Source of the DNA: Haloferula luteola
Lineage (GTDB): Bacteria; Verrucomicrobiota; Verrucomicrobiia; Verrucomicrobiales; Akkermansiaceae
Direction of reading: 5' to 3'
DNA length: 64,000 bases
Assembly (NCBI RefSeq): GCF_014201715.1
Contig: NZ_JACHFD010000014.1
Location: 1 to 64,000, forward strand
Each line of letters opens with the position of its first letter. The stretch's first letter is position 1. Below are positions 37,709 through 64,000 of the stretch, piece after piece. The translations under genes were made by a program, and so were the position numbers. The notes under the pieces are model-generated. The model was not told the DNA's origin, ran no database searches, and saw only the letters and a list, made by a program, of their open reading frames with translations.

Positions 37709-37739
37709 GACTTCGGTCTATTCGAGAAGAAGGGAGGAT

Positions 37740-47950: not shown

Positions 47951-47988
47951 AATGACAACGCCGCCGACCTCAGTGAGGACGGCGGCGT
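47951..47988 (-). terminator. Terminator-like hairpin after PEP-CTERM gene 48011-48769
   Basis: ACGCCGCCG pairs with CGGCGGCGT, with inner CCTC/GAGG pairing. Read leftward it is followed by a modest T-rich tract (TTGTCATTTTG). It would end the third PEP-CTERM transcript just ahead of fumA. Confidence 0.65.
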
Positions 47989-48010
47989 CGAAAAAGGTTC
48001 GCAAAGGCGA

Positions 48011-48769: not shown

Positions 48770-48802
48770 GGGGGTGGGTGGGGTAGAGGGTGATAGAAAC
48801 GG

Positions 48803-48818
48803 GGGATGACGTCATCCC
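48803..48818. promoter_or_regulatory. 16-base perfect palindrome upstream of PEP-CTERM gene
   Basis: GGGATGACGTCATCCC is self-complementary over its full length and lies 34 bases before the ATG at 48769, in the 5' untranslated or promoter region. A regulator operator is likely; none is identified. Confidence 0.5.
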
Positions 48819-48909
48819 GTAGGATGAACGCCGGACACACGGGGGGATAGCAGAGATCTCTCGGGGCTGACAAGCCTGAATTTCAAGCCCTTGTCGGGCG
48901 GCCAAGTTC

Positions 48910-49329
48910 TCAAAGGCGACCTTCGTCTGCATCGATGTAGTCCATGAAGCTACGAATGTCGTCCCGATGGGCGAAGCCGGATTCCTGTTTGCGGGTCGCC
49001 AAGCGCTCAGCAAGGTCGTCGCGGCTTCCGCGGTGAAGCATGTAGCTCCTCCACCATGCGGCTTCGTAGGGTGGGCGTTCGATGCCATTTTCACGGGCCC
49101 ATGAGAGCGTTTCTTCATCGGTTTTGCCGTTGAGGACGAAGGCTTTCAGGTCCTCGTATTCGACCCCGAGAAACTGGCAGGTCCAGAGGTCCATCCCGGA
49201 GCCGAGATTCGCATGGTAGTCGGTGGCAAGGGTGCCGGCAGCCATGCGGCGGATCTTGTCGCAGAGGCGGGGGAAGTAGATGACTCCGTCGGTTTCCAGG
49301 AAGGGACTGCAAGGAATGGTATCGGTCAC
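48910..49329 (-). CDS. DUF5069 domain protein
   Basis: A 139-residue protein beginning VTDTIPCSPFLETDGVIYF and containing LPRLCDKIRR-like and WRSYMLHRGSRDDLAERL segments, which recall the DUF5069 family of uncharacterised proteins frequent in Verrucomicrobia and Planctomycetes. No membrane segment or catalytic motif. The start is uncertain: GTG 49329 gives the usual family length; TTG 49416 would add 29 residues. It is divergent from the DUF1460 gene. Function unknown. Confidence 0.7.
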   Translation of the reverse strand: MTDTIPCSPFLETDGVIYFPRLCDKIRRMAAGTLATDYHANLGSGMDLWTCQFLGVEYEDLKAFVLNGKTDEETLSWARENGIERPPYEAAWWRSYMLHRGSRDDLAERLATRKQESGFAHRDDIRSFMDYIDADEGRL

Positions 49330-49445
49330 GGCGACAGTCTGCCGACCGGTCGTGAGGTGCCGCAATACGCGAATCGGGCGAAATTCTGCGGAACGCTCGG
49401 GTTGGTGGCTTTCCAAGAATCCGCCTTCTCGGATAAGCTGCCATC

Positions 49446-50420
49446 ATGAATCGTGGATGGTGGTGGATCATGATGGCCATGCTGCTTGGATGGGCGACGC
49501 CGCAAGGGACAGCTCAAGAGCTTGCTGGAGCCCCGGCGGTGCCTGCGGCCTGTCCGCAACGCTTGCCCTTGCGCACCACCTTCACGGGCCAGCAGAAGTT
49601 TCGAGCGATGGTGGCCAAGGCGGAGGCGGAGAATTGGCGGGTCCGACCGATCGGTGTGCGAACGATGCTCGCGGCGCGCGAGATGGTGGGCACGCCCTAC
49701 GTGAACTTCACTTTGGAGGCTGATGATCGCATTGAGAATCCCATCGTGAATCTCGAAGGGATGGATTGCTGGACGTTCTACGAGAACGCGTTGGCATTTG
49801 CCCGAATGCTGCGCTTCAAGCCCGGGCCTTATCGACCCGAGGATATGTTGCACATGATTGAGGTCGAGCGATATCGCAATGGAGTGTGCACAGGGAGTTA
49901 CTTGAGTCGGATGCATCACCTGGAGGAGGTGTTTTTCAACAACGAGAGCCGGAAGCTTGCCCAAAACATCACGCCTCATCTACCGGGAGCGGTGCGCTTG
50001 CAGCGGGAAATTCGGGAGATGACCGTGCAGTGGAAAAGTTACCGATATTTGCGCAGCAATCCCCGGCTAGTTCCCGAAATGGGGAAGGTTGAAGCCCGGG
50101 TTTCGACACTTCCAGTGTGGCATGTGCCGAAAGACAAGGTGCGAAACATCGAGAAGGACCTTGCGGATGGCGACGTGTGCGCGATCACCACCCATTGGAA
50201 GTATGGGTACACCTCGCATGTGGGTCTGATTTTGAAGATCAAGGGGAGAGCCTACTTTTGCCACGCCACCTCCGATCGTGACAAAGGCCGGATGACGATC
50301 ATTGATCGTCCGATCACCGATTACTTGATGGGGGCCTCGAAGCATGCCGGCATTGCGGTGTGTCGTCCCGCGGATGTGCCCCCGTCTGCTTTATGGAGGC
50401 AGCCTTCGGTGCGGCGTTGA
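49446..50420 (+). CDS. DUF1460-type (NlpC-like amidase) secreted protein
   Basis: A 324-residue protein with a signal peptide (MNRGWWWIMMAMLLGWATP). The family-specific LEGMDCWTFYENALA segment carries the likely catalytic Cys, followed by SYLSRMHHLEE; YGYTSHVGLILK supplies the conserved His strand. DUF1460 proteins are NlpC/P60-like and predicted N-acetylmuramoyl-L-alanine amidases. It lies upstream of lexA in the same direction with 72 bases between. Confidence 0.82.
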   Translation: MNRGWWWIMMAMLLGWATPQGTAQELAGAPAVPAACPQRLPLRTTFTGQQKFRAMVAKAEAENWRVRPIGVRTMLAAREMVGTPYVNFTLEADDRIENPIVNLEGMDCWTFYENALAFARMLRFKPGPYRPEDMLHMIEVERYRNGVCTGSYLSRMHHLEEVFFNNESRKLAQNITPHLPGAVRLQREIREMTVQWKSYRYLRSNPRLVPEMGKVEARVSTLPVWHVPKDKVRNIEKDLADGDVCAITTHWKYGYTSHVGLILKIKGRAYFCHATSDRDKGRMTIIDRPITDYLMGASKHAGIAVCRPADVPPSALWRQPSVRR

Positions 50421-50464
50421 GGGGCTTCGATTTCTTGCTTGCCGGAATCCGTGATTGGGGGTTT

Positions 50465-50478
50465 TGTTCCTTCGAACA
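50465..50478 (+). promoter_or_regulatory. LexA-binding site (SOS box) before lexA
   Basis: TGTTC-CTTC-GAACA is a perfect TGTTC-N4-GAACA inverted repeat ending 14 bases before the lexA ATG. This matches the LexA motif I recall as described for Verrucomicrobia. Its position over the translation-start region fits autorepression of lexA. Confidence 0.85.
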
Positions 50479-50492
50479 CTGTTCTCAATGTC

Positions 50493-51107
50493 ATGTCGGA
50501 GCCACTTACCCCACGCCAGCGAGAGATTTTCGAGTATCTGCAGGAGTATCAGCGCATGTGCGGGTTGATGCCGTCGACGCGTGAGATCCAGCATTTCTTT
50601 GGCTTTGCCAGTCAGACAGCGGCGATGAGTCATTTGCGGGCTCTCGAACGCAAAGGGGTGATCCAACGCCTACCCAATAAGGCGCGAGCGGTGGTATTGC
50701 CTCAGCAACTCGATCGTGAACCGATCGTGGACATCCCCATTTACGGGCAAATTGCGGCGGGCATGGCGCAGGACACCACCGCGGAGAGCGAGGGGTGCAT
50801 TTCGATCGATATCAGTTCGCTGGGGATTCGGCCATCGGCGCGGACCTTTGCCCTAAAAGTGCGTGGAGATTCGATGATCAACGCCCACATCTGCGATGGC
50901 GACACGGTGATCTTGGAGTTCCGAGAACCAAGAAAGGGTGACATTGTGGCCGCGTTGATCGATGGAGAAACAACCTTGAAGCGATACGTTTTGAAGGACC
51001 GCCGACCTTATCTTCAGGCAGAGAATCCTGACTATCCGGACCTGATCCCGGCGCGAGAATTGGTCATTCAGGGGGTGCTCGTCGGTTTGATCCGCAAAGC
51101 CGCCTAA
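50493..51107 (+). CDS. lexA: LexA repressor, SOS response regulator
   Basis: A 204-residue repressor-peptidase. The N-terminal winged-helix domain (LTPRQREIFEYLQEYQ, MPSTREIQHFFGFAS) binds the SOS box; the C-terminal S24 domain has cleavage site Ala89-Gly90 (QIAAGMAQ), nucleophile Ser127 in GDSMINAHICDGD and general base Lys163 in TTLKRY. All autocleavage residues are present. Its own promoter carries a matching box. The stop overlaps the convergent GT11 stop. Confidence 0.96.
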   Translation: MSEPLTPRQREIFEYLQEYQRMCGLMPSTREIQHFFGFASQTAAMSHLRALERKGVIQRLPNKARAVVLPQQLDREPIVDIPIYGQIAAGMAQDTTAESEGCISIDISSLGIRPSARTFALKVRGDSMINAHICDGDTVILEFREPRKGDIVAALIDGETTLKRYVLKDRRPYLQAENPDYPDLIPARELVIQGVLVGLIRKAA

Positions 51108-51979
51108 TCGCTCAATGAAGCGTCGAGTCGATTCGCAATCCTGAGCCAGTGAGGTTCTGGAACGACGGGCCAGCCGGGATTTTCAGGCGTCCAAACCCAT
51201 TTGGTTTCTGAGTCTCGAAGCCATGCGGCCCACCAACTGAATGAGCTGTTCGCCACGATGGCGTGGCGGCAGGCCTGCATGAGGCGGAAGTCACGAAGTT
51301 CATTGGACACGTCGCCATCGTGAAATCGCACCGGAAGGGCCCCGAAATCGAGATGAGTTCGAGCCCAAGCTAAGTCGTCTCCAAACACTTCAAATCGAAC
51401 TCCGGACACACGTTGGGAGGCATCGACAAGAGCCCTCTGGTAGTAGTCGGAGTCGAGACGGGGCGAATATCGAACCCGTCGGATATGAACGAATACGGAG
51501 GGTTGATCGAGGAACTCTTGTTCGAGTGCGAGATCGGAGGCGACCTCAAGGGGCGGTGGAGTGAGTTCGCGGCGCAGTGGGGTGGCAAAGTCGCGAAAGT
51601 AATCTCCATCCTGCCAGTAGCCGTTGAGAAAAATCGTTTTCCGAGAGGAGGAAAAGTTCAGGAGGTCGGAAGGTCTCGTCGATTTTCTTTCCACCCAGTA
51701 CGAGCGGGAGTCGGCCGGGAAAAAGCGATCGAAGAGACGTCGGCTGCGGTGGCGGAAAGAGCGACTGGACCCGAGTCGAAGTGACGCTGGGGCGAGGGAC
51801 GACTCGATCGGAAATTCCCCCAAGCGAAACTGCCGACTGTATCCGTCGCGCAGAAATCCGGACTCCGGGTCGACCCATAGTGTCCGCTGGGTGCGCAGAG
51901 CGAGGGCTCGCGCTGCAGCGTAGGAAAAGAGCTGGTTTCCCAGCCCGCCTTTGATGAGCGCGACAATTGAGCAATCCAC
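51104..51979 (-). CDS. Glycosyltransferase family 11 (alpha-1,2-fucosyltransferase type)
   Basis: A protein of about 291 residues. Family landmarks are KGGLGNQLFSYAAARALA at the N-terminus, the segment VFVHIRRVRYS, aligned with the GDP-fucose-binding HxRRGDY block, and ANSSFSWWAAWL near the C-terminus. The Gly-Asp of the HxRRGD motif is replaced by Val-Arg, which could change donor use. Start is GTG 51979 or TTG 52003. It is the last gene of the acylation operon. Confidence 0.82.
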   Translation of the reverse strand: MDCSIVALIKGGLGNQLFSYAAARALALRTQRTLWVDPESGFLRDGYSRQFRLGEFPIESSLAPASLRLGSSRSFRHRSRRLFDRFFPADSRSYWVERKSTRPSDLLNFSSSRKTIFLNGYWQDGDYFRDFATPLRRELTPPPLEVASDLALEQEFLDQPSVFVHIRRVRYSPRLDSDYYQRALVDASQRVSGVRFEVFGDDLAWARTHLDFGALPVRFHDGDVSNELRDFRLMQACRHAIVANSSFSWWAAWLRDSETKWVWTPENPGWPVVPEPHWLRIANRLDASLSD

Positions 51980-52025
51980 GGCAAAGAGAGTTCGGGATGT
52001 CAAAGATCCAAGGGAGCGAATGCCA

Positions 52026-53555
52026 TCAGAATTGGAAATAGATGAACTCGCTCAGTTTGTCGAATTCGCGGCTCACGGCATAGAGCAGGGCGAGAGTGAA
52101 CAAAAGCCAGCCGGTGGTGGGTCTCCATTGCCAGCGTTTGCGTGGGCCCAGGGCACCTCCTGGAAGTTGGGCGAGTCCGAGAGCCGGGAAGTAGCGACGC
52201 ATGAACTGCTGGGTGTTGGGGAGAAACCAAACGAGGATGAGACCTAGGCAAATCGGGCGCCAAGCACGGGTCGAACTGGCGACGATGCCCGATTCCGATG
52301 GCCAGAACTCCAAGCCATGCAGCCCGGCCATTGACGACAGGATCGAGCGAGTGGCCTCAAGCGCATCGTGCATGGATCCTGTTGCCACGAGCTCGTAGTT
52401 GCCCGCGCGGAAGGGAATCCAGGCAAGGATCACGGCGAGGAAGGTGATGGGGATGGACAGCACCTTGGGGATGGCGGGGAGGGAGAATTTTTTCCTCAAG
52501 GCAACCCAGCCATGGTTGATGCAGAGGTAGAGGCCGTGCAGGCCACCCCAGATAAGAAAGGTCCATCCCGCTCCGTGCCACAGTCCACCCAAGAGCATGG
52601 TCATGAGAAGATTGCCATAGCGCCGGAGGGGGCCGCGGCGATTCCCTCCTAGCGGAATGTAGAGGTAGTCGCGCAAGAAGCGGGAAAGGGTGATGTGCCA
52701 GCGCCTCCAGAAATCGATGACGGAAACGGCCTTGTAAGGGGAGTGGAAGTTGACCGGAAGCTTGATTCCGAAGAGTCGAGCCGACCCGATGGCCATGTCG
52801 CTGTAGCCTGAGAAATCGAAGTAGATCTGGAGGGCATAGGCCAAAGTAGCGGCCCAAGCTTCCCCGCAGGTGAGGCTGCGATCCCCCGAGGCTGCGAGAT
52901 CAAATAAGGGAGTTGAAGTCCGGGCAAGGTAGTCGGCGATGACGACCTTTTTGAAGAGTCCGACGACGAGGATGACGGCACCAATGGAAAGATCATTCGC
53001 GCTCAGGCCCTTTCCCTTGTGGCGCACGAACTGTGGGAGCATCTCCTTGTGGTGGACGATGGGCCCGGCAATCAGTTGGGGGAAGAAAGTCACAAAGAGG
53101 AGGTAGTCCCAAAAGTGGTATTCTTTGGTTTCCCCGCGCCACGCATCGACGAGATAGGCGACCTGCTGGAAGGTGAAAAACGAAATCCCGAGAGGCAAAA
53201 TGATGGCGGGAATATCAAAGTCAGCATGGGCCCATGAGGTCGCCATTTTGGCGAAAAACCCAGCGTACTTGTAGTAAGAAAGGATGCCCAAGTTGGCGAT
53301 GACTCCCGCGGTGAGGATGGCGAAACCGGATTTGCTCGGACGGCGTCTGGAAATGGCTCGGCCAGCGAAGAAATTGGCGATGCATGAACCCCCGATGATC
53401 CAGAGATTGTTCCAGTCCCACCAACCATAGTAGATGAGGCTAGAGACGACGAGGAATGCGACACTGACCCTGAACGGCGCCCGGCGCAGCAGGTGAAAAC
53501 CCAGAAGCACCAGCGGCAGGAAAAAAAGCAGGTAGGTGTAAGAGTTGAAGAGCAT
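52026..53555 (-). CDS. MBOAT-family O-acyltransferase, copy 1 (AlgI-like)
   Basis: A 509-residue polytopic membrane protein of the AlgI/DltB type that moves acyl groups across the inner membrane for polysaccharide acetylation. Seen: LPLGISFFTFQQVAYLVDAW, FFPQLIAGPIVHHKEMLPQF, DFWRRWHITLSRFLRDYLYIP and the catalytic-His motif LWHGAGWTFLIWGGLHG. Its C-terminus (KLSEFIYFQF) is identical to that of copy 2. It follows the fourth paralogous SGNH-like gene by 6 bases. Confidence 0.93.
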   Translation of the reverse strand: MLFNSYTYLLFFLPLVLLGFHLLRRAPFRVSVAFLVVSSLIYYGWWDWNNLWIIGGSCIANFFAGRAISRRRPSKSGFAILTAGVIANLGILSYYKYAGFFAKMATSWAHADFDIPAIILPLGISFFTFQQVAYLVDAWRGETKEYHFWDYLLFVTFFPQLIAGPIVHHKEMLPQFVRHKGKGLSANDLSIGAVILVVGLFKKVVIADYLARTSTPLFDLAASGDRSLTCGEAWAATLAYALQIYFDFSGYSDMAIGSARLFGIKLPVNFHSPYKAVSVIDFWRRWHITLSRFLRDYLYIPLGGNRRGPLRRYGNLLMTMLLGGLWHGAGWTFLIWGGLHGLYLCINHGWVALRKKFSLPAIPKVLSIPITFLAVILAWIPFRAGNYELVATGSMHDALEATRSILSSMAGLHGLEFWPSESGIVASSTRAWRPICLGLILVWFLPNTQQFMRRYFPALGLAQLPGGALGPRKRWQWRPTTGWLLFTLALLYAVSREFDKLSEFIYFQF

Positions 53556-53561
53556 GGAGAA

Positions 53562-54788
53562 TCAGTGCCGGGCAGCGGCGTGAAGGAGTGACTGACGCCA
53601 AGCGAGGTCCCTTCCGCCAGGACCGTCGAGGTAGGACTGGGCATCGCGAAGGTAGTTTTCTCGCCACACAGGCAGGGATGCGAGGGTCAAGGGGGTGCCG
53701 TAGTTTTGGCCCTCGGCTGAGAGAATGGGCCATCCAGAGATGCGCGCGAGAATGGTGCGACCGACTTCCGGGGTGTAGTGGCCGAAGTCGAGCCAATGTT
53801 CCATACGCTCCCCTGCGCCTAGGGGCATGGGATCGCAGTTCCAAGCGAGGGGGCCTTGGAAGTCCCAGACCGGAGTGGGGAGTTGTTGGGGAAACTTGCC
53901 GTCGGCATGCCGCACGAGTTGGAGAATGGCCTCGTTTTCACGTGGGACTGTGATCGGGGTGGCTCCGGATGGGGGCAGGCGGGTGAGGAAATGGCTGGGG
54001 TGAAGAACAAGAATTAGGCGAATTCCACGTTGATGAGAGGTTTCGACGAGGTGGTGGAGGAGCCGCGCTTTGTCAGGAAGCAGGCGGGCTCCCGACTCGA
54101 GGGATTCCGGGAAAGCTTGAGGTCGACGGCGGTTGAGGAGAGCCGCAAGAAGTTGCCGTTGGTCCGTCGAAAACCATTCGGGGCCGAGGCGGTGAAGGCC
54201 TCGTGGCGTGAACTTAGGGGATTCGTGGCGTGAGGCGCGTCGAAGAGTTCGGAGGGACTCGGTGAGGGTCGAAATGCCGACGGCATATCGGAGTTCGCGC
54301 TCAAGGTCGAAGCCGCCATCAGCAAGCGGCGAACTGGCAAAGTCGGCCAGACGACGGGTATCAAAATCGCTCGTGAGATCTCCGGGGTCGATTCCGAAGA
54401 AGACGGCTTCAGGTTGGTGGTGACGGAGCAGTTCGTCGAAAACGGCTACGTTCTCGTAGAAGAAGCTACCGCTGGCCGCGAGGTTGTAGACATCATTGCG
54501 TTGCCAATCCGGGAGGTCGGGGTCCCACGCAGTCATGACCCGAGAGGAGCCGATGAGCGCGATGCCAATGTGCTCCGCGGATCGAATCAAACCACATTTT
54601 CCCGTGCGAAGCTGGGATTCGATTTCCCGATAGGCATCGAGCTTCGAAGATTGGAGGGGGCTGGCGAGGATGCGGAATGGATCGACCACCAGATTGATGG
54701 CCAAGCTGAGCAGCAAGATCCCCAAAAGGCAGGTGAGCAATGCCACCGCATAGCGGGTGGCGGGGGCTCGGCGAATGGGGTGACTCAT
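53562..54788 (-). CDS. Membrane-anchored SGNH-hydrolase-like protein A (polysaccharide acylation)
   Basis: A 408-residue protein with one N-terminal membrane segment (about 14-34) followed by NLVVDPFRIL. Block I is LIGSSRVMTAW (Ser nucleophile position); a middle block is FFGIDPGDLTSDFDTRRL; a C-terminal block WLDFGHYTPEVGRTI carries the Asp-x-x-His dyad. The module resembles AlgX/DltD-type acyl transferases that partner MBOAT proteins. A conserved LRTGKCGLIRS segment follows the anchor. One of five paralogs; belongs to the LVV(D/N)P subfamily. Confidence 0.8.
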   Translation of the reverse strand: MSHPIRRAPATRYAVALLTCLLGILLLSLAINLVVDPFRILASPLQSSKLDAYREIESQLRTGKCGLIRSAEHIGIALIGSSRVMTAWDPDLPDWQRNDVYNLAASGSFFYENVAVFDELLRHHQPEAVFFGIDPGDLTSDFDTRRLADFASSPLADGGFDLERELRYAVGISTLTESLRTLRRASRHESPKFTPRGLHRLGPEWFSTDQRQLLAALLNRRRPQAFPESLESGARLLPDKARLLHHLVETSHQRGIRLILVLHPSHFLTRLPPSGATPITVPRENEAILQLVRHADGKFPQQLPTPVWDFQGPLAWNCDPMPLGAGERMEHWLDFGHYTPEVGRTILARISGWPILSAEGQNYGTPLTLASLPVWRENYLRDAQSYLDGPGGRDLAWRQSLLHAAARH

Positions 54789-54834
54789 GAGGATCCGAAA
54801 GGACGGAGGGTGAAGGAGGTCGCTCGCTGGGAGG

Positions 54835-56076
54835 TCAGTCCGGTTTGCGTGCTTTCTCGATCACCGAGATTTTCCATAGGATGTCATCATGCCCGGCGCC
54901 TTCGATGTAGCGGGTATAGCCATCGACGCAGTGCTGGGTCCAAGAGGCAAGGTTTTCGGATGTTAGGCGAATGCCGTAGTTTTCGCCCTCGGGGATGGGG
55001 AGATTCCAGTCGAAGATTCGGGCCAACATCAGATGACCCATGGAGCTGGAGTAGTGTTCGAAGTCTGCCCAATGGGGCATGCGGGACTCCGCATCGGGAG
55101 GAATGGGGTCGCAATTGAGCGGGTGAGCATCACGGAAGTCCCAAACCACGGTGGGCGGCTTGTCGGGGTGGGCGGCATCGGACGAGGCGACGATCTCAAC
55201 GATCCCTTCACGCTCGAGACTGAGTGGTGGTTGGGTCGGAGGGGTAAGATCGGCGTAGGGGAGAACGTGCTGGGGATGGAGAAGCAGAATGAGGCGAATA
55301 TCCTTTTCGTGGCAGGTATCGATGATTCCCCGGAGCAGTCTTCCTTTGTCTTCGCGAATCGGATTGGCGATGCGATCTTTGGTGACAAAGCCGAATGCGG
55401 CCTGAGTGCGAAAGGCTTCTGCGAGGAAGGCGCGCTGACTCGATCGGGTCTTCGCTTTGGCTTTGCTTTTGTCTTTGAGACGAAAGCCGCGGGGGCTGAA
55501 CTTCGGAGGGGTATCGCGCGCGGCGCGAATCAGGGTTTGGATGGATTCTTCCAGGCTGGAGACACCAATGTGGTATCGAAGTTCGCGATCGATGCGGGTT
55601 TTGGCATCGCCGAGAGGGGAGGCATAGTAGTCACCCATTGGGCGGCTATCGAGATCGCTGCTGAGGTCGCCGGGATCAATGCCGAGGACGATCGTTTCCG
55701 GATTCTGGTGGGCAACGAGGTACCGAAACATGGCCTCATTTTCGTAGAAGAAGCTCGCACTCGCACCGAGGTTGTAGACGTCGTCGCGTCCCCAATCCGG
55801 GAGTTCAGGATCCAGGGCAAGCATGACCCGAGAGGAACCTAAGAGGGCGATTCCGATGTGCGGAGCGGAACGAACAAATCCACATTTTCCGGTTCGAGTC
55901 TGTGAGGAAATGTCGCGATAAGGATCGAGCGATTTCGAATGGAAGGGGGTGGCCAAAAGTCGCCAGGGATCGACCACCAAATTGGTGCCCAGCGCGAGGG
56001 TGAGGACGATGCCAATGATCAGGAGGAAGCTCGCGATGAACTTCCAGCTCGGAGGGCGGGCGCGGAAAAAACTCAT
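54835..56076 (-). CDS. Membrane-anchored SGNH-hydrolase-like protein B
   Basis: A 413-residue paralog of protein A: membrane anchor then NLVVDPWRLL, TRTGKCGFVRS, block I LLGSSRVMLALDPELPDW, VLGIDPGDLSSDLDSRPM, LLLHPQHVL and terminal dyad block HWADFEHYSSSMGHLM. An internal Lys-rich stretch (KDKSKAKAKTRSSQ) is unique to it. ATG 56076 has a GAGGTG ribosome site; the stop of protein C lies 10 bases upstream. Expected role is acyl transfer or removal at the outer side of the inner membrane. Confidence 0.8.
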   Translation of the reverse strand: MSFFRARPPSWKFIASFLLIIGIVLTLALGTNLVVDPWRLLATPFHSKSLDPYRDISSQTRTGKCGFVRSAPHIGIALLGSSRVMLALDPELPDWGRDDVYNLGASASFFYENEAMFRYLVAHQNPETIVLGIDPGDLSSDLDSRPMGDYYASPLGDAKTRIDRELRYHIGVSSLEESIQTLIRAARDTPPKFSPRGFRLKDKSKAKAKTRSSQRAFLAEAFRTQAAFGFVTKDRIANPIREDKGRLLRGIIDTCHEKDIRLILLLHPQHVLPYADLTPPTQPPLSLEREGIVEIVASSDAAHPDKPPTVVWDFRDAHPLNCDPIPPDAESRMPHWADFEHYSSSMGHLMLARIFDWNLPIPEGENYGIRLTSENLASWTQHCVDGYTRYIEGAGHDDILWKISVIEKARKPD

Positions 56077-56086
56077 GGTGAGCACC

Positions 56087-57322
56087 TCAGTTGGGTTTCC
56101 AAAGATTCATGTGATTTTCGACCCAAGCAAAATCCTCCGGATGGTCCTTTTGGTAGCGCAGGTAGCCATCGCGCAACGTCTGTTCCCGGTCGTCGAGGTT
56201 CTCTGTTGTGAGAGGGGTGCCGTAGGTGGCGTCTTCGGGATGGGCGGGTGGCAAGTCCATCATGCGCGAAAGCATGATCGAGCCAAGCGTGGGAAGAGCG
56301 TGCGTGCCATCTGCCCAGTAGTAGGTGGGTTTGCGGGGTTGGTCGATGGGTGGCAGGGCCTCGCAATTGTAGGGGTGGAAATCGTTGAAGTCCCACAGAG
56401 TGATTGAGGAAGCGTCGTTGCCTTGGGTTTCCTCGGCGATGACTGAAGTCATGATTTCCCGGTCGGTGCGAAAGCCGGGATCGGGGTCGCCTTTGAGTCG
56501 AAAGACCGAGAGGAAAGCGGCGTGATTGGGGGGGATGCAGAGAAACAGCCGCAGATGGTGATCGAGGCAGAAACGGATGATTTGGCGATAGTCTTCCACT
56601 TTGTCCGGGTTGCCGGCGATGCCCTTGTGGCGTTCTTTGATGAATCGGTTGGCCCACATGAACGATTCATATTGGAGGACTTGACGGAGGGGTCGCTTGT
56701 CGAGTTGGCGAACCCATTGCCCCTGGGGACTGTAGGCGGAAAGGCGCTTGGTGAAGCGGTAGTCGAGGGTCTTGACGCTCATCTCGAAGGCGGAGGTGCC
56801 AAAGCGATAGCGCAGTTCCTTTTCGAAGGGATCTCCGGACTCGCTGAGGGGGGATTCTTGGAAGCCGGCGACGTCGAGGACGTCATGTCGGGAGGTAAGA
56901 TCGGCAAGGTCGACGCCGACAACGACCAGCTTGAGAGGTTGCCGTGCGTAAGCATACTCGAGCATGGCCCGATGCTCGGTGATGGTTCCTCCACGCAGAG
57001 CGAGGTTGGCAACCCGCAGGTCTCCGAAGGCGGGATGCTGCGGATCGAAGGCGATGTCGACACGCGAAGATCCGAGCAGAATGGCATCCCATTTTCCACT
57101 TCGCACCAAGCCGGTCTTCCCGAGACGAGGGTGTTTGTGAACGGGTTTGTAGTGGTCAAAACTGGCGGAAGACCAAGGGGAAGGGGTGATCCAGAGAGGG
57201 TTCACCCAAGTGGCGAGAAAGCCAAAGACGAGCATGATGGATCCAAACCATGCCAGCAATCCAAGGGTGTGCTTGCGAAGGCCCTGGCGGGCACGGTGGT
57301 AGGAAGGGTCGGACGCGGACAT
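56087..57322 (-). CDS. Membrane-anchored SGNH-hydrolase-like protein C
   Basis: A 411-residue paralog of the NPLWITPSPWSS subfamily: N-terminal anchor, PRLGKTGLVRS, block I LLGSSRVDIAFDPQHP, VVGVDLADLTSRHDVLDV, LCIPPNHAAFL, and terminal dyad block WADGTHALPTLGSIM. It shares with protein D the post-anchor 'PLW(I/V)TPSPW' wording and the 'xSPL' after the middle block. In-frame sequence upstream of 57322 overlaps protein D and is not used. Confidence 0.8.
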   Translation of the reverse strand: MSASDPSYHRARQGLRKHTLGLLAWFGSIMLVFGFLATWVNPLWITPSPWSSASFDHYKPVHKHPRLGKTGLVRSGKWDAILLGSSRVDIAFDPQHPAFGDLRVANLALRGGTITEHRAMLEYAYARQPLKLVVVGVDLADLTSRHDVLDVAGFQESPLSESGDPFEKELRYRFGTSAFEMSVKTLDYRFTKRLSAYSPQGQWVRQLDKRPLRQVLQYESFMWANRFIKERHKGIAGNPDKVEDYRQIIRFCLDHHLRLFLCIPPNHAAFLSVFRLKGDPDPGFRTDREIMTSVIAEETQGNDASSITLWDFNDFHPYNCEALPPIDQPRKPTYYWADGTHALPTLGSIMLSRMMDLPPAHPEDATYGTPLTTENLDDREQTLRDGYLRYQKDHPEDFAWVENHMNLWKPN

Positions 57323-57345
57323 GCCAGATGGAGAAAAAGGTCGGA

Positions 57346-58554
57346 TCAAAAACCGCCGCCCTGGTCCTTCAGGACGAGCGAACTGACCCACTCCCAGTCG
57401 CGGGCGTGGGTGCTGCGGTAGGTGGCGTAGCCGAGCGAAATCTCTCGCTCGCGGGAAGAAAGCGATTCGGGGAGGAGAATGCAACCGTAGTTGTCTTGAC
57501 TGGAGGGAGTCGAGGAGGGCTGGAGCATTCTTGAGATCATGAGATCACCGAGCTTGGGCGAGCCGTGAATGCCATCGATCCACCAGTGGGCTGAGGCGGT
57601 GGGACCCGCGGGGATGGCTTCGGTGTTGGCTGAGTCGAACCCAGTGAAGTCCCATAGTGAAACCGGGGGGGTATCGGGGTGGGCTTGATTCTCCTCTGCA
57701 ACGAGGCGGGTGAGGGCCGATCGTTCGGTAAAAAAGAACGGGTCCTGAACTTCGAGGATGGCCGGAATGGCAGCGGTTGCTGCGTGGTCAGGAGTGAGAA
57801 ACAGAGTGATTTCGACCTGATGGTGGCGGCCTGCTGCGAGGATATCCCGCACGGCCGCCATTTTGACCGAGCTGACTTCGGGAGTGTGACGGCGGGATTT
57901 GGCGGTTCTCAGGGCGACGGGAGCGGAGTCACTCCGAAACATGCTGCGGAAGCCGCGTCCACCGATGGGGTTTCTCCAGAATCCTTGGGGGGTGAAAGGG
58001 GCCGGTTCAAGGGCGCGGCGGGAATTCCAAGTGGCGATCGAAGCGGTGAAGGTGGAAATGCCCACGTATTTTCGGAGGTCGTATTCCAGATTGTCGTTTC
58101 GAGGATTGAGTGGAGATGACGCAAAGCCAGTCACGGATCGAAGGTCGTAGCTGGAGCTGAAATCGTTGAGATCGAGACCGACGAAGATCCGTCGCAAGGA
58201 GGGTTGATGGTCGAGCGCATAAGCGACCATGGCGGCATTTTCAGTGATGCTGCCGGCCCAGAGGCCGAGATTGATGCCGTGGTGACCGCTCCAAGCAGGC
58301 TCGGTCGGATCGAAGGCGGCAGCGACGCGGGAAGAACCTGCCACGGCGAAGTCCCATGGCTCCGCTGTCACCATGCCGGCTTTGGCCGTTCGGAGGCTGC
58401 GGTAAATTTGTTTGTAGGGCGCGAATCCGGGATCGGTCCACGGGCTGGGAGTCACCCACAGAGGGTCGATGCGGGTGTTGGCGGCAAAGAATGCCACCAA
58501 CAGCAGGAGGAACCCTGCGACCAGCCCTGAGGCGTAGCGGCAATGGCTCCGCAT
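57346..58554 (-). CDS. Membrane-anchored SGNH-hydrolase-like protein D
   Basis: A 402-residue paralog closest to protein C: anchor, DPLWVTPSPWTD, LRTAKAGMVTA, block I VAGSSRVAAAFDPTEPAW, FVGLDLNDFSSSYDLRSV, LFLTPDHAATA and terminal dyad block WWIDGIHGSPKLGDLM. ATG 58554 gives a clear anchor; a TTG at 58590 would add 12 residues. It lies 55 bases downstream of the second MBOAT gene. The substrate and acyl group are unknown. Confidence 0.8.
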   Translation of the reverse strand: MRSHCRYASGLVAGFLLLLVAFFAANTRIDPLWVTPSPWTDPGFAPYKQIYRSLRTAKAGMVTAEPWDFAVAGSSRVAAAFDPTEPAWSGHHGINLGLWAGSITENAAMVAYALDHQPSLRRIFVGLDLNDFSSSYDLRSVTGFASSPLNPRNDNLEYDLRKYVGISTFTASIATWNSRRALEPAPFTPQGFWRNPIGGRGFRSMFRSDSAPVALRTAKSRRHTPEVSSVKMAAVRDILAAGRHHQVEITLFLTPDHAATAAIPAILEVQDPFFFTERSALTRLVAEENQAHPDTPPVSLWDFTGFDSANTEAIPAGPTASAHWWIDGIHGSPKLGDLMISRMLQPSSTPSSQDNYGCILLPESLSSREREISLGYATYRSTHARDWEWVSSLVLKDQGGGF

Positions 58555-58609
58555 CGAGCGCCCAGAGCTGGAGCCGAAGAGGGGTGCCAACCGAAGAAGC
58601 GGGTTGAGG

Positions 58610-60160
58610 TTAGAATTGGAAGTAAATGAACTCGCTGAGTTTATCGAACTGATAAAGCGTGGCGAGCATCAGAAGGAGGGTGAATGCGAACCAGCGGCTG
58701 TTCGGGCGCCATTGCCACCATTTTCGTGGACCGATCTGGTAGTCTTCAAAGTGAGATGGGTCCATGGCGGGCTGGTAGCGGCGCATGAATTGCTGGGTAT
58801 TGGGAACAAACCAGCAGACGAAGACCAACAGACAGGCACGGAGGGCGTGGCTTTCCTTCACCACTTGCGTGGCGACGTCGGGCCAGCCGCCGAGGCCGTG
58901 GAAGCCGAACATGGCGGCGAGCATCTCGCGGGTGGCGGCAAGGGCCTTGGTGGTCGAGCCACTGGATCCCAGTTCGAAGGTGCCGGCGCGGAAGGGAACC
59001 CAGGCGATGATGACCAGAAGGAACGTGATGGCGATGGCCATGGGCTTGGGAACCTTCGGAAGGCCGCGCTTTTTGCGAAGGAAGATCCAGCCGTGGTTCA
59101 CGCAAAGGAAGACCCCATGGAGGAGCCCCCAGAGCAGATAGGTCCAGCCTGCACCGTGCCAGAATCCCCCGAGCACCATGGTGATGAGGAGATTGACGTA
59201 GCGACGGGACTTGCCTTTCCGGTTTCCGCCGAGAGGGATGTAGAGGTAGTCGCGCAGGAAACGGGAAAGGGTGATGTGCCAGCGGCGCCAGAAGTCGACG
59301 ATGGAGACGGCCTTGTAGGGAGAGTGGAAATTGAGAGGTAGGCGAATGCCGAACAAACGGGCGGAGCCGATGGCCATGTCGGTGTAGCCGGAGAAGTCGA
59401 AGTAAATCTGAATGCCGTAGGCGATGGCTCCCGCCCAAGCTTCCAAGAACCCGGGGGGGCGACCGGTGCCTCCAGCCATTTCAAAGATGGCATTGGCGAC
59501 TGGGGCGACGTTGTCGGCGATCACCACCTTTTTGAAGAGGCCGATGATAAGGATTGTGAGGCCAGCGGAAGTGTCGACCCAGCGGTGGTTTTTCCAAGTT
59601 TGCTTCTCGAACTGGGGAAGCATCTCCTTGTGGTGAACGATCGGACCGGCAATCAATTGGGGCCAGAACGAGACGAACAGGAGGTAGTCGGTGAAGCGGT
59701 ATTCTTCGGTTTCACCCCTCCAGGCATCGACGAGGTAGGCGATTTGTTGGAAGGTGAAGAAGGAGATGCCCAGAGCGAGGACGACATTGGGAAGGTGGAA
59801 GGAGAAATCTCCGAGTTGTTCGATGAGCCGGCCGACAAAGCCGGTGTATTTGAAGTAGGCGAGCAGGATCAGGTTGGCGGAGACACCGCTGATCAACAGC
59901 GTTTTTCCCCGGGAAGTGCCACGGTGTCGGGCGAGGTATTCTCCTATCCAAAAGTTGAAGAGACAGGAGCCGAGAATGAGCAGCACATACCAAGGCTTCC
60001 AAGGCTGGGAGGGATCGGGGTTCCACCATCCGTAGTAGACGATACTGGCGATCACCAGCCAAACAAAGGCGGCCCGAACCGCGATGCGTGCCGCGAAGAA
60101 AAAGCCTATCAGGGCCAGCGGCAGAAACAGCAGAAGGTAAGTGTAGGAATTGAAAATCAT
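58610..60160 (-). CDS. MBOAT-family O-acyltransferase, copy 2 (AlgI-like)
   Basis: A 516-residue paralog of the MBOAT at 52026-53555, sharing MxFNSYTYLL, LGISFFTFQQ, LIAGPIVHHKEMLPQF, the DFWRRWHITLSRFLRDYLYI block, FWHGAGWTYLLWGLLHG and the C-terminus KLSEFIYFQF. It has an insertion after the second helix (PDPSQPWKPWYV) and another near QPAMDPSHFEDYQ. At DNA level long stretches match copy 1 closely, so the two probably arose by duplication. It sits between SGNH-like genes D and E. Confidence 0.93.
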   Translation of the reverse strand: MIFNSYTYLLLFLPLALIGFFFAARIAVRAAFVWLVIASIVYYGWWNPDPSQPWKPWYVLLILGSCLFNFWIGEYLARHRGTSRGKTLLISGVSANLILLAYFKYTGFVGRLIEQLGDFSFHLPNVVLALGISFFTFQQIAYLVDAWRGETEEYRFTDYLLFVSFWPQLIAGPIVHHKEMLPQFEKQTWKNHRWVDTSAGLTILIIGLFKKVVIADNVAPVANAIFEMAGGTGRPPGFLEAWAGAIAYGIQIYFDFSGYTDMAIGSARLFGIRLPLNFHSPYKAVSIVDFWRRWHITLSRFLRDYLYIPLGGNRKGKSRRYVNLLITMVLGGFWHGAGWTYLLWGLLHGVFLCVNHGWIFLRKKRGLPKVPKPMAIAITFLLVIIAWVPFRAGTFELGSSGSTTKALAATREMLAAMFGFHGLGGWPDVATQVVKESHALRACLLVFVCWFVPNTQQFMRRYQPAMDPSHFEDYQIGPRKWWQWRPNSRWFAFTLLLMLATLYQFDKLSEFIYFQF

Positions 60161-60233
60161 CGGAGGCGGACCGCGGGAAGGGCGGGATTGGAATGAATCT
60201 TCAGGAGCTGGTCAAGGAGCGTGGGCTGGGGAG

Positions 60234-61460
60234 TCAGGGTCGGGTCGAGGTTTGGGTGACCTTGCGGGCCCACTCGATTTCCTGAGGCATTTGCTGGCGA
60301 TATTCGGCTTCGGTGCGGACAAGATCCGCGAGAAAGGCATCAATGTTGGAGCCATCAACATGCCAGCCAAAGGGGGGACCCGCGTGTTCCGGACCCTGGG
60401 TGCCGGCGATGCGTGCCGCCATGATCGCTCCGAGAAGAGAGTTCGGATGGGAGTGATCGATCCAGTGATCGGTGCCCCCCAAGTGCTTGCCCACGGGGGG
60501 GAAAGGTTCGGTCGTCAGGGGGTGGAATAGGGAGAAGTCCCACCAATCGAGTTGCTGATCGGGGTATTTCAGCCGCATGGCGTCGACGACTGAAGCGAAG
60601 TATCGGCGCTCGGTTTCCCAGACAGGGCCAGGTGCGGGATCTTCACCGAGCCAGGCTTGGGTGAGGGCCTGCATGGGGATGCAGGTGAGCGTGACTCGGA
60701 TTCCTTGGCTGAGACAGCGGTCGAGCAATGCCACGAAGCAAGCCTTGCGGGCTTCCCGCAGAGCTTCGGGGTGATTGCCGTACTGTTGATCGCGGCCTTT
60801 TTTGCGGTCGCGGAGGTGCTGGGCGAGAAGTTGCCGGGGTTCGTCAATGTGCCAGGTCAGCCAATCGCCGCGCGGCGAGAATTGGGAGGTCTCGCCCTCG
60901 GCGGCTCGCTTCAGGGTGTCGATGGACCCGATCAGGGTGGAGGTGCCGACGAGGTAGCGTAGGTTTCTTTCCAGTGGAGGGGAGGGGGAAAAGGGCGATT
61001 CGTAGAAATCGGCCAGAGCTCGACTGTCGCCATCCGACATGAAAGTGCCGTAGTCGAGGTTCAGGATGAGCCAATCGGTTTCAGGAAGGCGATCGAGGGA
61101 GTAATGGGCGACCGTGGTGTTCTCGATGATGTTGCCGCACGGGACACCGACGTTGAGTGCAGGAAGGCCCTGCCAAGCGGGATCGTTGGAACGCATGGCG
61201 ATGGCCACCCGCGAGGAACCGAACATGGCCAGTTGGGTGTCCGGGTGGGTCAGCACGACCCCGGCTTTGCCGGTGCGGGTGTGGCGGGGAAAGTCACGCC
61301 AGGGCTCCAAGGACTTGGAGGAGAGGAAAGTGGGGAGGACCCGCCAGGGGTTGACCACCAGATTGGTGACGCCGATGAGGAGGAGGGTCAGGGCGATGGT
61401 GCTGAGGATGAACCGGGTGTATCGGCGGTGCGGAACGCAGGGCATCAGGCGCGTAGCCAT
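60234..61460 (-). CDS. Membrane-anchored SGNH-hydrolase-like protein E
   Basis: A 408-residue paralog: anchor then NLVVNPWRVL, TRTGKAGVVLT, block I MFGSSRVAIAMRSNDP, ILNLDYGTFMSDGDSRAL, LTCIPMQALTQ, and terminal dyad block WIDHSHPNSLLGAIM. The wording after the anchor places it with A and B, but blocks II-III diverge. It is the first gene of the leftward operon, starting 175 bases from a divergent glycosyltransferase gene; the shared region must hold both promoters. Confidence 0.8.
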   Translation of the reverse strand: MATRLMPCVPHRRYTRFILSTIALTLLLIGVTNLVVNPWRVLPTFLSSKSLEPWRDFPRHTRTGKAGVVLTHPDTQLAMFGSSRVAIAMRSNDPAWQGLPALNVGVPCGNIIENTTVAHYSLDRLPETDWLILNLDYGTFMSDGDSRALADFYESPFSPSPPLERNLRYLVGTSTLIGSIDTLKRAAEGETSQFSPRGDWLTWHIDEPRQLLAQHLRDRKKGRDQQYGNHPEALREARKACFVALLDRCLSQGIRVTLTCIPMQALTQAWLGEDPAPGPVWETERRYFASVVDAMRLKYPDQQLDWWDFSLFHPLTTEPFPPVGKHLGGTDHWIDHSHPNSLLGAIMAARIAGTQGPEHAGPPFGWHVDGSNIDAFLADLVRTEAEYRQQMPQEIEWARKVTQTSTRP

Positions 61461-61635
61461 ATCCGAAGGCCCGGAGCTTGTCCAATGCGGCGGGCTTCGT
61501 GGTTTGGAGTGCGGGTTTTCCGCTTGTTGGTGGGCATCGCGTCACGGACGATCCGCCGGGAAATGCCCGCTCGATCCTTGTCAGTCGCCGATTTTGACGG
61601 CCACCTGCCACCCTTTTCAAAGAAGGGAGGGCACG

Positions 61636-62640
61636 ATGTCTGAAGTTCTTCCCGTAGGAATCGTGGTGCCTGTGAAGCAGTGTCGGCCGGCTTTGGATGC
61701 CCATATCGCCGATCTCCTGGAGCTTCTCCCTCATGTGGAGCAGGTGGTGGTGGTCGATAGCGCATCGACGGATGGCACCATGGAAGCGCTCCAGGCGGCG
61801 TTGCAGCATCCTGGAGCGGAGTTTCACGATCGGCCTCCTGGGCTGTATCAGGCGTGGAATTTTGGGATTTCGCAGGTCACCTCCCGCTACGTTTACATGG
61901 CGACCGTAGGCGACTGTATCGGGCTGAAGGGGTTGCAGCAATTGGTGCAAACGGCGGAGTCGTTGCAGGTTGACGCTGTGATCAGCCCCCCGGAGTTGGT
62001 GAATGATTCGGGCCAGGCGTTGGGGAAGACCTGGCCGGTCCATGAGTTGGTGCGAGAGCGGAAGCTGGAAGCCCCTGTGGTGCTTCCGGTACGAGAATGG
62101 TTAGGACGCTGCCTAGCGGCCTATCCGGCAACCCTGATTGGAAGCAGCGCGAGCAATCTCTACCGTGCCGATTTCCTGCAAGCGCATCCGCTTCCTGTCG
62201 AGTATGGCCATGCCGGAGATGCGGCTTGGGCGGTAAAAATGAGTTTTCAGGCGCGTTGGGCGGTCGATCCCACGGTGCCATCAAAATTTTGGATTCATGA
62301 GACGCAACCGGGAGTGGTGGGGATTCGCGGCGATCTGGTAGAGCGCTTGTTGGGGGCTCCGGAGGAACTGGCCGCCGAGGCGGAGGGCCGCTGGGCGGAG
62401 GATCCCGTGTTGCCGCGCATCATGGCGGCTTATCGTCAGCTCCAACCGCGCATGGTTTCACGCATGCATGGAATGGCGGCTTATCGCGAGCGCTGTGCAA
62501 GCTCTCCCTGGGCTCAATTTCTCCCATCGGTCCGCAGGTGGCGTCGCCATCTGAGGAAAGAGAAACGAGAGATCGAAGCTCTGCAGGAGAGCATGCAATC
62601 CCTGCTCACCGAGTATCCGATGGATGGGGAGCGTGGCTAG
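61636..62640 (+). CDS. GT-A fold glycosyltransferase (family 2-like)
   Basis: A 334-residue glycosyltransferase. Seen: PVGIVVPVKQC, VVVVDSASTDGTMEAL (sugar-nucleotide binding), DRPPGLYQAWNFGISQVTS, and the metal-binding acidic site VGDCIGLKGL in the DxD position. No membrane segment; cytoplasmic. ATG 61636 has a strong GAAGGGAGG ribosome site. It is divergent from the acylation operon, and its stop shares the CTAG with the convergent sulfotransferase. Confidence 0.88.
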   Translation: MSEVLPVGIVVPVKQCRPALDAHIADLLELLPHVEQVVVVDSASTDGTMEALQAALQHPGAEFHDRPPGLYQAWNFGISQVTSRYVYMATVGDCIGLKGLQQLVQTAESLQVDAVISPPELVNDSGQALGKTWPVHELVRERKLEAPVVLPVREWLGRCLAAYPATLIGSSASNLYRADFLQAHPLPVEYGHAGDAAWAVKMSFQARWAVDPTVPSKFWIHETQPGVVGIRGDLVERLLGAPEELAAEAEGRWAEDPVLPRIMAAYRQLQPRMVSRMHGMAAYRERCASSPWAQFLPSVRRWRRHLRKEKREIEALQESMQSLLTEYPMDGERG

Positions 62641-63365
62641 CGCATGGAGCGACCCAGAAGCCGTTGGATCAGGCTGCAGCGCAGCGTCGAGGCTTCGGCA
62701 AGATGCAATCGTTTGGCGCAATCGTAGACGGCAAATTCCAATTCATGGCGTTCTCGAAAGGCCTTTTGGGCTTGCTCGCAGATGGTGCCTTCCCTTGAGC
62801 AGCGGTTTTTGACCGGAACATAGCGGGGGGGACGCTTGCCAAGTTTGCGTGCGATCACCGCCATCGAGCAGGAGAGCTTTTCGGTAATCCCGATGTGGAC
62901 GAAATGCTCGTGGATCACCTCCTCGTAGTTGTCGATCGAGGTGTCGGTGGGGAAATGTTGAAGCATATCGATGCGGCACTCTCGAAGATAATCGTTGATA
63001 GTGAGATCCAGGGTTTCGGGACTTTGCTTCCAGTCTTTGCCATTTTTTCGAGTGTAGAAATAACGCGAAATGGCCAGCGCAAGAGGATCGCGGAGAATCG
63101 TCACGAACTGCCGAACCTCGGGGTAGTAATCGGGGATGCCGGCACCGCGGCGACGATTGAAGTGCCCGAAAATCACCGCAGGTTGGGAGGGGCAATGCAC
63201 CTGTGCCAAGTCAACGGGAGCGGGCAGGCTGCCGTCCATTTCGTTGATGTAATGGGTGTGAAAATTCGGCTCAAACCACGAACGGACGATATTGCGCGAC
63301 GAGGTGCCGCCGGCTTTCGGCATGTGAATGAAAATGAGCGGCTGTTTGGGGTCGTAGGGGATCAA
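62637..63365 (-). CDS. Sulfotransferase-family protein
   Basis: A 242-residue PAPS-type sulfotransferase. The 5'-phosphosulfate loop is FIHMPKAGGTSSRNIV; the 3'-phosphate-binding segment is TILRDPLALAISRYFY with Arg and Ser. FGHF and an N-terminal His context fit the sulfotransferase-2 family (heparan 2-O-type). Its presence beside glycosyltransferase and acylation genes suggests a sulfated polysaccharide. The stop overlaps the convergent glycosyltransferase gene by 4 bases. Confidence 0.87.
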   Translation of the reverse strand: MIPYDPKQPLIFIHMPKAGGTSSRNIVRSWFEPNFHTHYINEMDGSLPAPVDLAQVHCPSQPAVIFGHFNRRRGAGIPDYYPEVRQFVTILRDPLALAISRYFYTRKNGKDWKQSPETLDLTINDYLRECRIDMLQHFPTDTSIDNYEEVIHEHFVHIGITEKLSCSMAVIARKLGKRPPRYVPVKNRCSREGTICEQAQKAFRERHELEFAVYDCAKRLHLAEASTLRCSLIQRLLGRSMR

Positions 63366-63625: not shown

Positions 63626-64000
63626 ATGATTTCCCTCAAACACCAGTTCTTATTCATCCACGTTCCCAAGACCGGGGGAAATAGTATCCAGAATATCCTC
63701 AAGGATTATTCCGAGGATGACATCGTGATCATGGGCGAACATCAGGATGGGGTGGAGCGTTTTGAGGTTCGCAACGCGAACTATCAAATCACCAAGCACG
63801 CGACTCTTGCTGAATACCGCGAGGTTTTGGACCGTGCGACCTTCGAGAAGTTGTTCAAGTTTGCGACGCTGCGAAATCCATGGGACATGATGATCTCATT
63901 TTATTTTTCTCCGCATCGTAAAGTGAGTGCGTGGGATCGGGATGATTTTCTCTCCTTGTTGGCCGAGACACCGACCCTGAGGCACTACGTGCATTGCCCG
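63626..64000 (+). CDS. Sulfotransferase-family protein (3' truncated by window)
   Basis: At least 125 residues, open to the window edge: MISLKHQFLFIHVPKTGGNS begins the protein, with the 5'-phosphosulfate loop HVPKTGGNSIQNIL and the 3'-phosphate-binding segment FATLRNPWDMMISFYF. It is a paralog of the sulfotransferase at 62637-63365, pointing the opposite way. The 260 bases between them show no convincing gene; an imperfect hairpin (63579-63604) lies 22 bases before this start. Confidence 0.85.
   Translation, partial: MISLKHQFLFIHVPKTGGNSIQNILKDYSEDDIVIMGEHQDGVERFEVRNANYQITKHATLAEYREVLDRATFEKLFKFATLRNPWDMMISFYFSPHRKVSAWDRDDFLSLLAETPTLRHYVHCP

Follow-up and report, generated by a model that had tools for sequence, protein, structure and literature searches.

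How would five SGNH proteins encoded in one gene run be served by just two membrane-bound O-acyltransferases (MBOATs), and on what would they act? The question is raised by the window, the whole stretch of 64,000 nucleotides (nt) from Haloferula luteola that was analysed (positions 1 to 64,000 of contig NZ_JACHFD010000014.1), where eight genes, all of them open and on the minus strand, follow one another at 51104-61460 with almost no space between them. A sequence-only reading of this DNA had described a nearly gapless leftward series of eight genes in which five SGNHs share two MBOATs as one dedicated polysaccharide-acylation system; the series is as described, with gaps of 1-73 nt, and the sharing has to be restated. 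Our reading, to which we give a probability of about 0.72, is that two MBOAT-SGNH modules lie side by side and acylate a surface glycan by way of an acyl-tyrosine shuttle, together with a further SGNH protein (E) and a GT11 glycosyltransferase. The mechanism class, MBOAT-SGNH acylation, we hold with high confidence, and the five-to-two expansion of SGNHs over MBOATs is unusual.

The gene run and the proposed mechanism

The genes are listed in order of transcription; types I to III are SGNH subtypes described further below.

60234-61460, minus strand: SGNH E, DltD-like, 408 amino acids (aa), N-terminal hydrophobic anchor, GSSR at 81-84, D335/H338, long branch
58610-60160, minus strand: MBOAT2, 516 aa, His335 in LGGFWHGAGW, C-terminal FIYFQF; nearest labelled relatives have type I partners
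57346-58590, minus strand: SGNH D (type I), 414 aa, or 402 aa if the start is the ATG at 58554
56087-57322, minus strand: SGNH C (type I), 411 aa; in a clade with one copy of genome G017 (locus L070) and one of C1_MAG_00076 (locus L075)
54835-56085, minus strand: SGNH B (type III), 416 aa, GSSR at 83-86, D341/H344, model with a predicted local distance difference test (pLDDT) score of 93; sister of A
53562-54788, minus strand: SGNH A (type III), 408 aa, 6 nt before MBOAT1
52026-53555, minus strand: MBOAT1, 509 aa, His327 in LGGLWHGAGW, C-terminal FIYFQF
51104-52003, minus strand: GT11 glycosyltransferase (PF01531), homologue of the final gene in the genus's type II operon

The intergenic gaps, in the same order and with the starts chosen here, are 73, 19, 23, 1, 46, 6 and 22 nt; for SGNH C the ATG at 57322 fits the family better than the earlier start of the listed open reading frame (ORF). 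We found 3 promoter-like sites in the run (2.5 in shuffles) and 10 terminator-like sites (10.1 in shuffles), and one promoter-like site upstream of E (61620-61591, minus strand). Because such sites are no commoner than in shuffled sequence, we infer co-transcription of the run from its spacing only. The match of the last gene to PF01531 has an E-value of 2e-21 and 77 bits (cut-off 23.9).

In the mechanism that we propose, each MBOAT would take an acyl group, most likely acetyl, from cytosolic acyl-CoA on to the tyrosine of its own FIYFQF tail, the acyl-tyrosine tail would hand it to the catalytic serine (in GSSR, with Asp-x-x-His) of a membrane-anchored SGNH, and the acyl-SGNH would pass it to a hydroxyl of the surface glycan. 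MBOAT1 would most likely load A and B, and MBOAT2 most likely C and D and perhaps E, while the duplicate SGNHs would probably have different acceptor sites or residues.

The five SGNH proteins

The five proteins A-E can be aligned from end to end, with pairwise identities of 25-45% (45% for A and B, 34% for C and D) and 41 columns invariant among them. A profile built from A-E matched just these five proteins in the window's own genome and 58 copies in the genus, so that we regard them as paralogues and not as chance matches. Each has a single N-terminal hydrophobic stretch (best 19-mer 2.0-2.7, versus 0.9-1.3 for the best elsewhere). GSSR is kept in 58/58 genus copies, the five of the window included, and none of the 53 copies outside the window, nor any of the five within it, departs from the D and H of D-x-x-H. 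The second serine of GSSR is presumably the nucleophile, by analogy with GDS motifs. When the 24 columns invariant in the 53 outside copies were considered, A, B and D were found to keep all 24, C 23 and E 21, and the three positions changed in E all lie outside GSSR and D-x-x-H. In both E and B the GSSR stands at residues 81-86 and the D-x-x-H at 335-344, serine first and Asp-His last, which is the ordinary SGNH order and differs from the permuted one of AlgX/AlgJ.

No credible Pfam match was obtained for the five proteins or for 29 family members, and no NCBIfam match for the five; PF04914 (DltD) gave none for the five at E <= 1, and PF16822 (AlgX/AlgJ) matched one of the 29 members, the best E being 0.061, so that by sequence the family falls outside AlgX/AlgJ. 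A search by sequence for a relative of solved structure gave just two implausible matches, to DNA-binding proteins (E 0.6-4), and this route was rejected.

AlphaFold models were made for B and for E, the most divergent copy (B, pLDDT 93 and predicted TM-score (pTM) 0.91; E, pLDDT 90.4 and pTM 0.90). In both, an N-terminal helix leads into an alpha/beta domain, and this domain matches SGNH structures. With Foldseek, all 12 matches of the B model at E <= 0.001 were DltD chains (best E 2.6e-5), and VIA placed DltD first as well (Z 12.8, root-mean-square deviation (rmsd) 4.8, 268 residues aligned), followed by sialate and platelet-activating factor acetylesterases (Z about 11) and PatB (Z 10.8). 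For the E model VIA ranked DltD (Z 11.6 over 254 residues) level with PatB (11.5), with several esterases and with a designed scaffold. AlgX/AlgJ chains were not among the best 50 matches of either model, which excludes nothing, as VIA re-ranks Foldseek's best 1000. The proposal made from the letters, five paralogous, membrane-anchored SGNH-like proteins, thus holds, and their predicted character is DltD-like; the SGNH fold was recovered in the confident models of B and E and the GSSR/D-x-x-H residues in all five, and no SGNH, AlgX or DltD profile family recognises the five.

The two MBOATs and their tyrosine tail

Both MBOATs match PF03062 (E 1.3e-39 and 1.2e-37; 136.9 and 130.4 bits, cut-off 27) and, under its cut-off, the DltB model (E 1.7e-52 and 1.3e-51). 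The catalytic-histidine motif LGG[LF]WHGAGW is kept, with His327 in MBOAT1 and His335 in MBOAT2, and FIYFQF forms the very C-terminal end of the two proteins, the tail tyrosine being Y506 in MBOAT1 and Y513 in MBOAT2. The tail F[IL]YFQF was present in all 51 MBOATs that were listed for the fetched loci. According to statements in PMC12148441, PatA auto-acetylates the tyrosine of a C-terminal FXYXXF motif, an acetyl-tyrosine hexapeptide can be used as donor by PatB, and the FXYXXF tyrosine of DltX carries D-alanine; a statement in PMC11035591 gives the DltX motif as FLYFGF. Because the window's MBOATs share this shuttle motif of PatA and DltX, transfer from the tail tyrosine to the SGNH serine and on to the polymer is very likely. 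As to the acyl group, the DltA model has nine matches in the window's genome and none above the curated cut-off, and PF04914 (DltD) has no match there, with two of 14 control genomes positive; an acyl-CoA donor, probably acetyl, would on these grounds be likelier than D-alanine.

The same genome has a third, divergent MBOAT on another contig (L053:9271-10800, G000:C31) that also ends in FIYFQF. No SGNH of the A-E family was found within the 20 kb fetched around it. For the gene that follows it (L053:8356-9270, 304 aa) Pfam gave nothing at E 10, and its product could be another unmodelled partner.

Distribution and pairing in relatives

The SGNH family accompanies MBOATs across Luteolibacter/Haloferula relatives. 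Of the 18 genus genomes, counting that of the window, 17 have it, with 58 copies in total, and the one genome that gave none is 61% complete. Our first search of relatives gave matches in 22 of 144 genomes, 17 of them from the genus (own included) and five from another family of the order, and a phylum-wide sample gave matches in 17 of 387, ten of them outside the genus; at most four candidates per genome were scored in the phylum-wide sample, so that its copy numbers are lower bounds, and all candidates were scored for the genus counts. Over both searches 14 out-of-genus genomes had a match, and in the seven whose locus was examined the SGNH lies beside an MBOAT on the same strand (7/7; two of these genomes, G128 and G114, fed the profiles used and were omitted from the enlarged SGNH tree and from the trees used to place E). 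Within the genus, 46 of the 58 SGNHs have an MBOAT as a same-strand neighbour less than 250 nt away, which makes 47 adjacencies with one SGNH counted twice.

SGNH types I, II and III were set from the first SGNH tree before gene order and partners were counted. The tree contains supported subtypes; type II, for instance, has 15 rows with support 100/100. The enlarged tree added loci L075 and L087 only, L080 being a near-copy of these and the other loci repeating genomes already included. Relatives mostly carry 1:1 MBOAT-SGNH pairs of the three types, at one to three places per genome. With the window and G017 included, the MBOAT precedes the SGNH in 17/17 adjacent pairs of type I and 14/14 of type II, and the SGNH precedes the MBOAT in 13/13 of type III; three further adjacencies involve SGNHs of no type. 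Pairs of types I and III are commonly arranged SGNH_III-MBOAT-MBOAT-SGNH_I, and the type II operon, in which FkbM is a methyltransferase, has the order FkbM-GDSL-MBOAT-SGNH-GT11 in 14 genomes. In the first MBOAT tree the partner type requires three changes over 38 labelled rows (minimum 2; shuffled mean about 18, 0/200 as low), counted on 38 of the 51 MBOATs with the window, G017, unlabelled and 'other' rows omitted and two MBOATs of G006 missing. A second tree, from which the divergent third MBOAT (L053) was left out and to which three rows were added (L075/L087), requires four changes, again for 38 labelled MBOATs (shuffled mean 18.2, 0/200 as low). As pair order follows type and partner-type changes are few, MBOATs and SGNHs have been largely inherited as cognate pairs, with some swapping.

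The GDSL-like protein encoded between FkbM and the MBOAT in the 14 genomes (L040:9850-10740 and homologues) matches PF13472 below cut-off (E 0.0037, tested in L040), and the type II operon may on this basis hold a second SGNH-like enzyme. The window's run, to which the search for FkbM was confined, contains neither FkbM nor the GDSL gene, and the GDSL gene was not found in the window's genome in a search that had no positive control.

Assignment of the window's genes to modules

Set against these pairs, the run reads as E, then MBOAT2-D-C, then B-A-MBOAT1, then GT11, that is, a type I and a type III module abutting, each with two SGNHs. D comes directly after MBOAT2, as in other type I pairs, and A comes before MBOAT1, as in other type III pairs. 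MBOAT1 clusters with MBOATs of type III partners in both MBOAT trees (99/93 in the first, 99/95 in the second), and its predicted pairing with A and B is well supported, our confidence in it being fairly high. A and B are sisters (100/99) within type III, where the enlarged tree places a single G017 relative beside both, so the split between them is specific to the window's lineage as sampled.

Among labelled MBOATs, the ten closest to MBOAT2 are each partnered by a type I SGNH (the labelled type I rows have support 92/98 in the first tree), and we consider with moderate confidence that MBOAT2 pairs with C and D. C and D stand beside type I SGNHs, and each forms a clade with one G017 and one C1_MAG_00076 copy (100/96 and 98/90); because they do so separately, the C/D split predates these genomes. 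In G017 the genes keep this order, interrupted by about 7.5 kb (MBOAT-D'-C' ... AB'-MBOAT-GT11), and in C1_MAG the order is MBOAT-D'-GT11-MBOAT-C' with the two MBOATs being sisters (100/99). As each C1_MAG orthologue follows an MBOAT of its own and these MBOATs are sisters, C and D use one kind of MBOAT. Branch lengths in the first SGNH tree are 0.89 for A, 0.49 for B, 0.82 for C and 1.33 for D; that of E is 2.6-2.7.

The L054_4884 SGNH, too, is followed by an MBOAT and then by a type I SGNH. A very divergent SGNH (L075:331-1530 and L087:1633-2832; about 300 bits with the family profile) occurs in two related metagenome-assembled genomes about 3 kb before an MBOAT and then a D-like SGNH, and, like E, it is without a firm place in the tree.

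Across the loci compared, no other genome of the genus reaches the ratio of five SGNHs to two neighbouring MBOATs. SGNHs also exceed neighbouring MBOATs in G003, G010, G013, G016 and G017; when all PF03062 matches are counted, they do so in the window's genome only, five to three, among 18 genomes. The idea of a five-SGNH system conserved throughout the genus was ruled out, as pair modules alone recur. Of the proposal that five SGNHs share two MBOATs in one dedicated system, the MBOAT-SGNH acylation locus therefore stands, whereas relatives mostly carry 1:1 pairs and the run consists of two predicted modules plus E; the eight-gene composition is not conserved in relatives and the pair modules are.

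Several observations weigh against this reading. E is changed at three of the 24 positions that are invariant outside the window, and one of the changes, D139T, falls in the conserved GxDxxD stretch. The Foldseek TM-scores of B to DltD are low, 0.35-0.38 by query length, with an rmsd of 11-14, and the fold is compatible with transfer and with hydrolysis alike because esterases match B at 1-2 Z units below DltD and match E equally well. In the second MBOAT tree the type I clade is broken, and MBOAT2 with a G017 relative becomes sister (83/88) to a mixed group of 28 rows, a single type I MBOAT clade not being rejected by the approximately unbiased (AU) test (p 0.322). Since C' and D' have separate MBOATs in C1_MAG, it is a supposition that a single MBOAT would serve both C and D in the window. 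AU tests reject none of three homes for E, namely type II (p 0.164), L075_331 (p 0.36) and L054_4884 (p 0.149). Related genomes contain near-copies, and the pair and tree counts are inflated by them. Finally, the polymer is named from gene neighbourhood only, and action of all the genes on one polymer is likewise presumed.

A possible division of labour among the SGNH proteins

If the two-module reading holds, why would each module have two SGNHs? Separate acceptor sites for the SGNHs, with the site- or residue-specific acylation that had been suggested from the sequence, would fit, and we hold this with low to moderate confidence. A more specific form, in which each MBOAT would charge two (or three) SGNHs in alternative complexes and each SGNH would write its own glycan position as part of a combinatorial acylation code, we advance tentatively, judging it somewhat more apt to fail than to hold.

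The SGNHs might instead be redundant tandem duplicates that raise dosage without any division of labour. The A/B split is found in the window's genome only among the genomes examined, and the same genome alone has more family SGNHs than PF03062 MBOATs, as this explanation would have it. However, A and B are just 45% and C and D 34% identical, with unequal branches, catalytic residues are kept in all, and C and D are both retained in three lineages, and we think dosage unlikely.

Slightly less likely still is a relay like that proposed for AlgJ and AlgX, in which the SGNHs would act serially, as steps of one or two chains and not as parallel enzymes with different acceptors; one SGNH would accept the acyl group from the MBOAT and a second would carry it to the polymer. 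AlgI works with AlgJ and AlgX in distinct roles, as stated in PMC4148444, and the retention of C and D just mentioned makes both copies seem needed. Most relatives, however, have about one SGNH per neighbouring MBOAT, all five window SGNHs are anchored and alignable end to end with no extra domain, in C1_MAG a separate MBOAT accompanies each of the C and D orthologues, an arrangement superfluous for a C-D relay, and the stoichiometry of DltB and DltD is reported in PMC11035591 to be probably 1:1.

Acylation plus deacylation, as suggested earlier, would require that at least one of the five, with E and D, which have the longest branches, as candidates, removes acyl groups as an esterase. We hold this to be very improbable, and it has no specific support. 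The SGNH fold is common to esterases, and E matches these as well as it does DltD and carries the changes noted above, but none of the five has lost GSSR, the D-x-x-H pair or the anchor, and at every out-of-genus locus examined the family stands beside an MBOAT.

Comparison with known systems

Within the genus, the type II operon shares with the window's run its MBOAT and SGNH families and, by homology, its GT11; it differs in having one MBOAT with one SGNH of another subtype, and in the FkbM and GDSL genes, which are not in the window's run. PatA/PatB, the Gram-negative MBOAT-SGNH pair of peptidoglycan O-acetylation, resembles the window's system in the conserved MBOAT histidine and C-terminal FXYXXF and in a separate SGNH with serine first and Asp-His last, PatB matching the model of B with Z 10.8 and that of E with Z 11.5. 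Unlike that pair, the window has SGNHs without a credible Pfam family and several of them per MBOAT, and its neighbouring genes suggest a sulfated glycan and not peptidoglycan. DltB/DltX/DltD, the system of teichoic acid D-alanylation, is similar in that no solved structure matches B better than DltD (over 268 residues), both MBOATs are picked up below cut-off by the DltB model and the shuttle motif is of the DltX type; it differs in that the window's genome is without a PF04914 match or a DltA over cut-off, and in that the shuttle motif is fused to the window's MBOATs. AlgI/AlgJ/AlgX of alginate O-acetylation, as described in PMC4148444, likewise combines one MBOAT with more than one SGNH-like protein and works on an exopolysaccharide. 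By the corresponding statement in PMC9487903, however, AlgJ and AlgX are circularly permuted, with H before S and DXH, whereas the window's SGNHs have GSSR first and D-x-x-H last, and no extra carbohydrate-binding domain was seen in them. In titles and abstract starts of the open-licence PMC literature we found no description of such an SGNH expansion, and no paper in the library searched combines MBOAT, SGNH and Verrucomicrobi-, so that the earlier remark that no described system has this content is not contradicted there.

Neighbouring genes and the likely polymer

The genes upstream of E within the window are the following.

61114-62640, plus strand: GT2 glycosyltransferase, divergent from the run; PF00535 match at ORF residues 183-306
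62637-63365, minus strand: possible sulfotransferase, 242 aa, with a short N-terminal match to the adjoining Sulfotransfer_2 gene
63626-64000, plus strand: start of a Sulfotransfer_2 (PF03567) gene that runs past the window's end (L074:2626-3273)

The true start of GT2 is probably well inside its ORF, because the 5' part overlaps E in antisense. Past GT2 come the possible sulfotransferase, Sulfotransfer_2, Sulfotransfer_3, a second GT2, an ABC exporter and a further glycosyltransferase. The 62637-63365 protein has no Pfam match at E 10, and 12 of 28 aa match at the N-terminus in a two-sequence comparison with the neighbouring Sulfotransfer_2 protein (E 3e-6); it may be a diverged sulfotransferase. 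A sulfotransferase gene lies less than 500 nt from an SGNH gene in seven relatives, and in three of them (G010, G013, G016) between two SGNH genes. Sulfated glycosaminoglycan-like exopolymers are reported in Pontiella, of another class of the phylum (PMC7356697). Our best guess for the acceptor is a surface glycan or exopolysaccharide, sulfated and acylated, that the neighbouring genes would make. Beside the ABC exporter stands a 308-aa gene (L074:7306-8232) with no Pfam match at E 10 that clusters with a gene in L052.

On the other side, beside GT11, LexA-like, AmiA-like, DUF5069, PEP-CTERM and fumarase genes (46228-51107) are syntenic with those flanking the type II operon of G002 (L043), which suggests that the window's cluster may sit at an old type II site. 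Matches to the PEP-CTERM motif were found at the C-termini of two minus-strand genes, 41572-42378 and 48011-48769 (E 0.00049 and 0.0093; 20.5 and 16.5 bits, both below the cut-off of 20.7), and hint at an exosortase system in the source genome. A 638-aa ORF at 36011-37927 (plus strand) has no Pfam match at E 0.01.

Significance

The chemistry proposed here is of the known MBOAT-SGNH kind; what is new is an SGNH family without a Pfam or NCBIfam model and the expansion of SGNHs within cognate modules. The finding adds an unmodelled SGNH family to the MBOAT-SGNH acylation systems, in Verrucomicrobia. In the genus, whose members include Luteolibacter marinus and Haloferula rosea, SGNH:MBOAT ratios range from 1:1 upwards and the types can be traced, which makes the seat of acyl-site specificity testable. 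If the combinatorial code is true, the SGNH, and not the MBOAT, would be the interchangeable specificity unit of MBOAT-SGNH systems.

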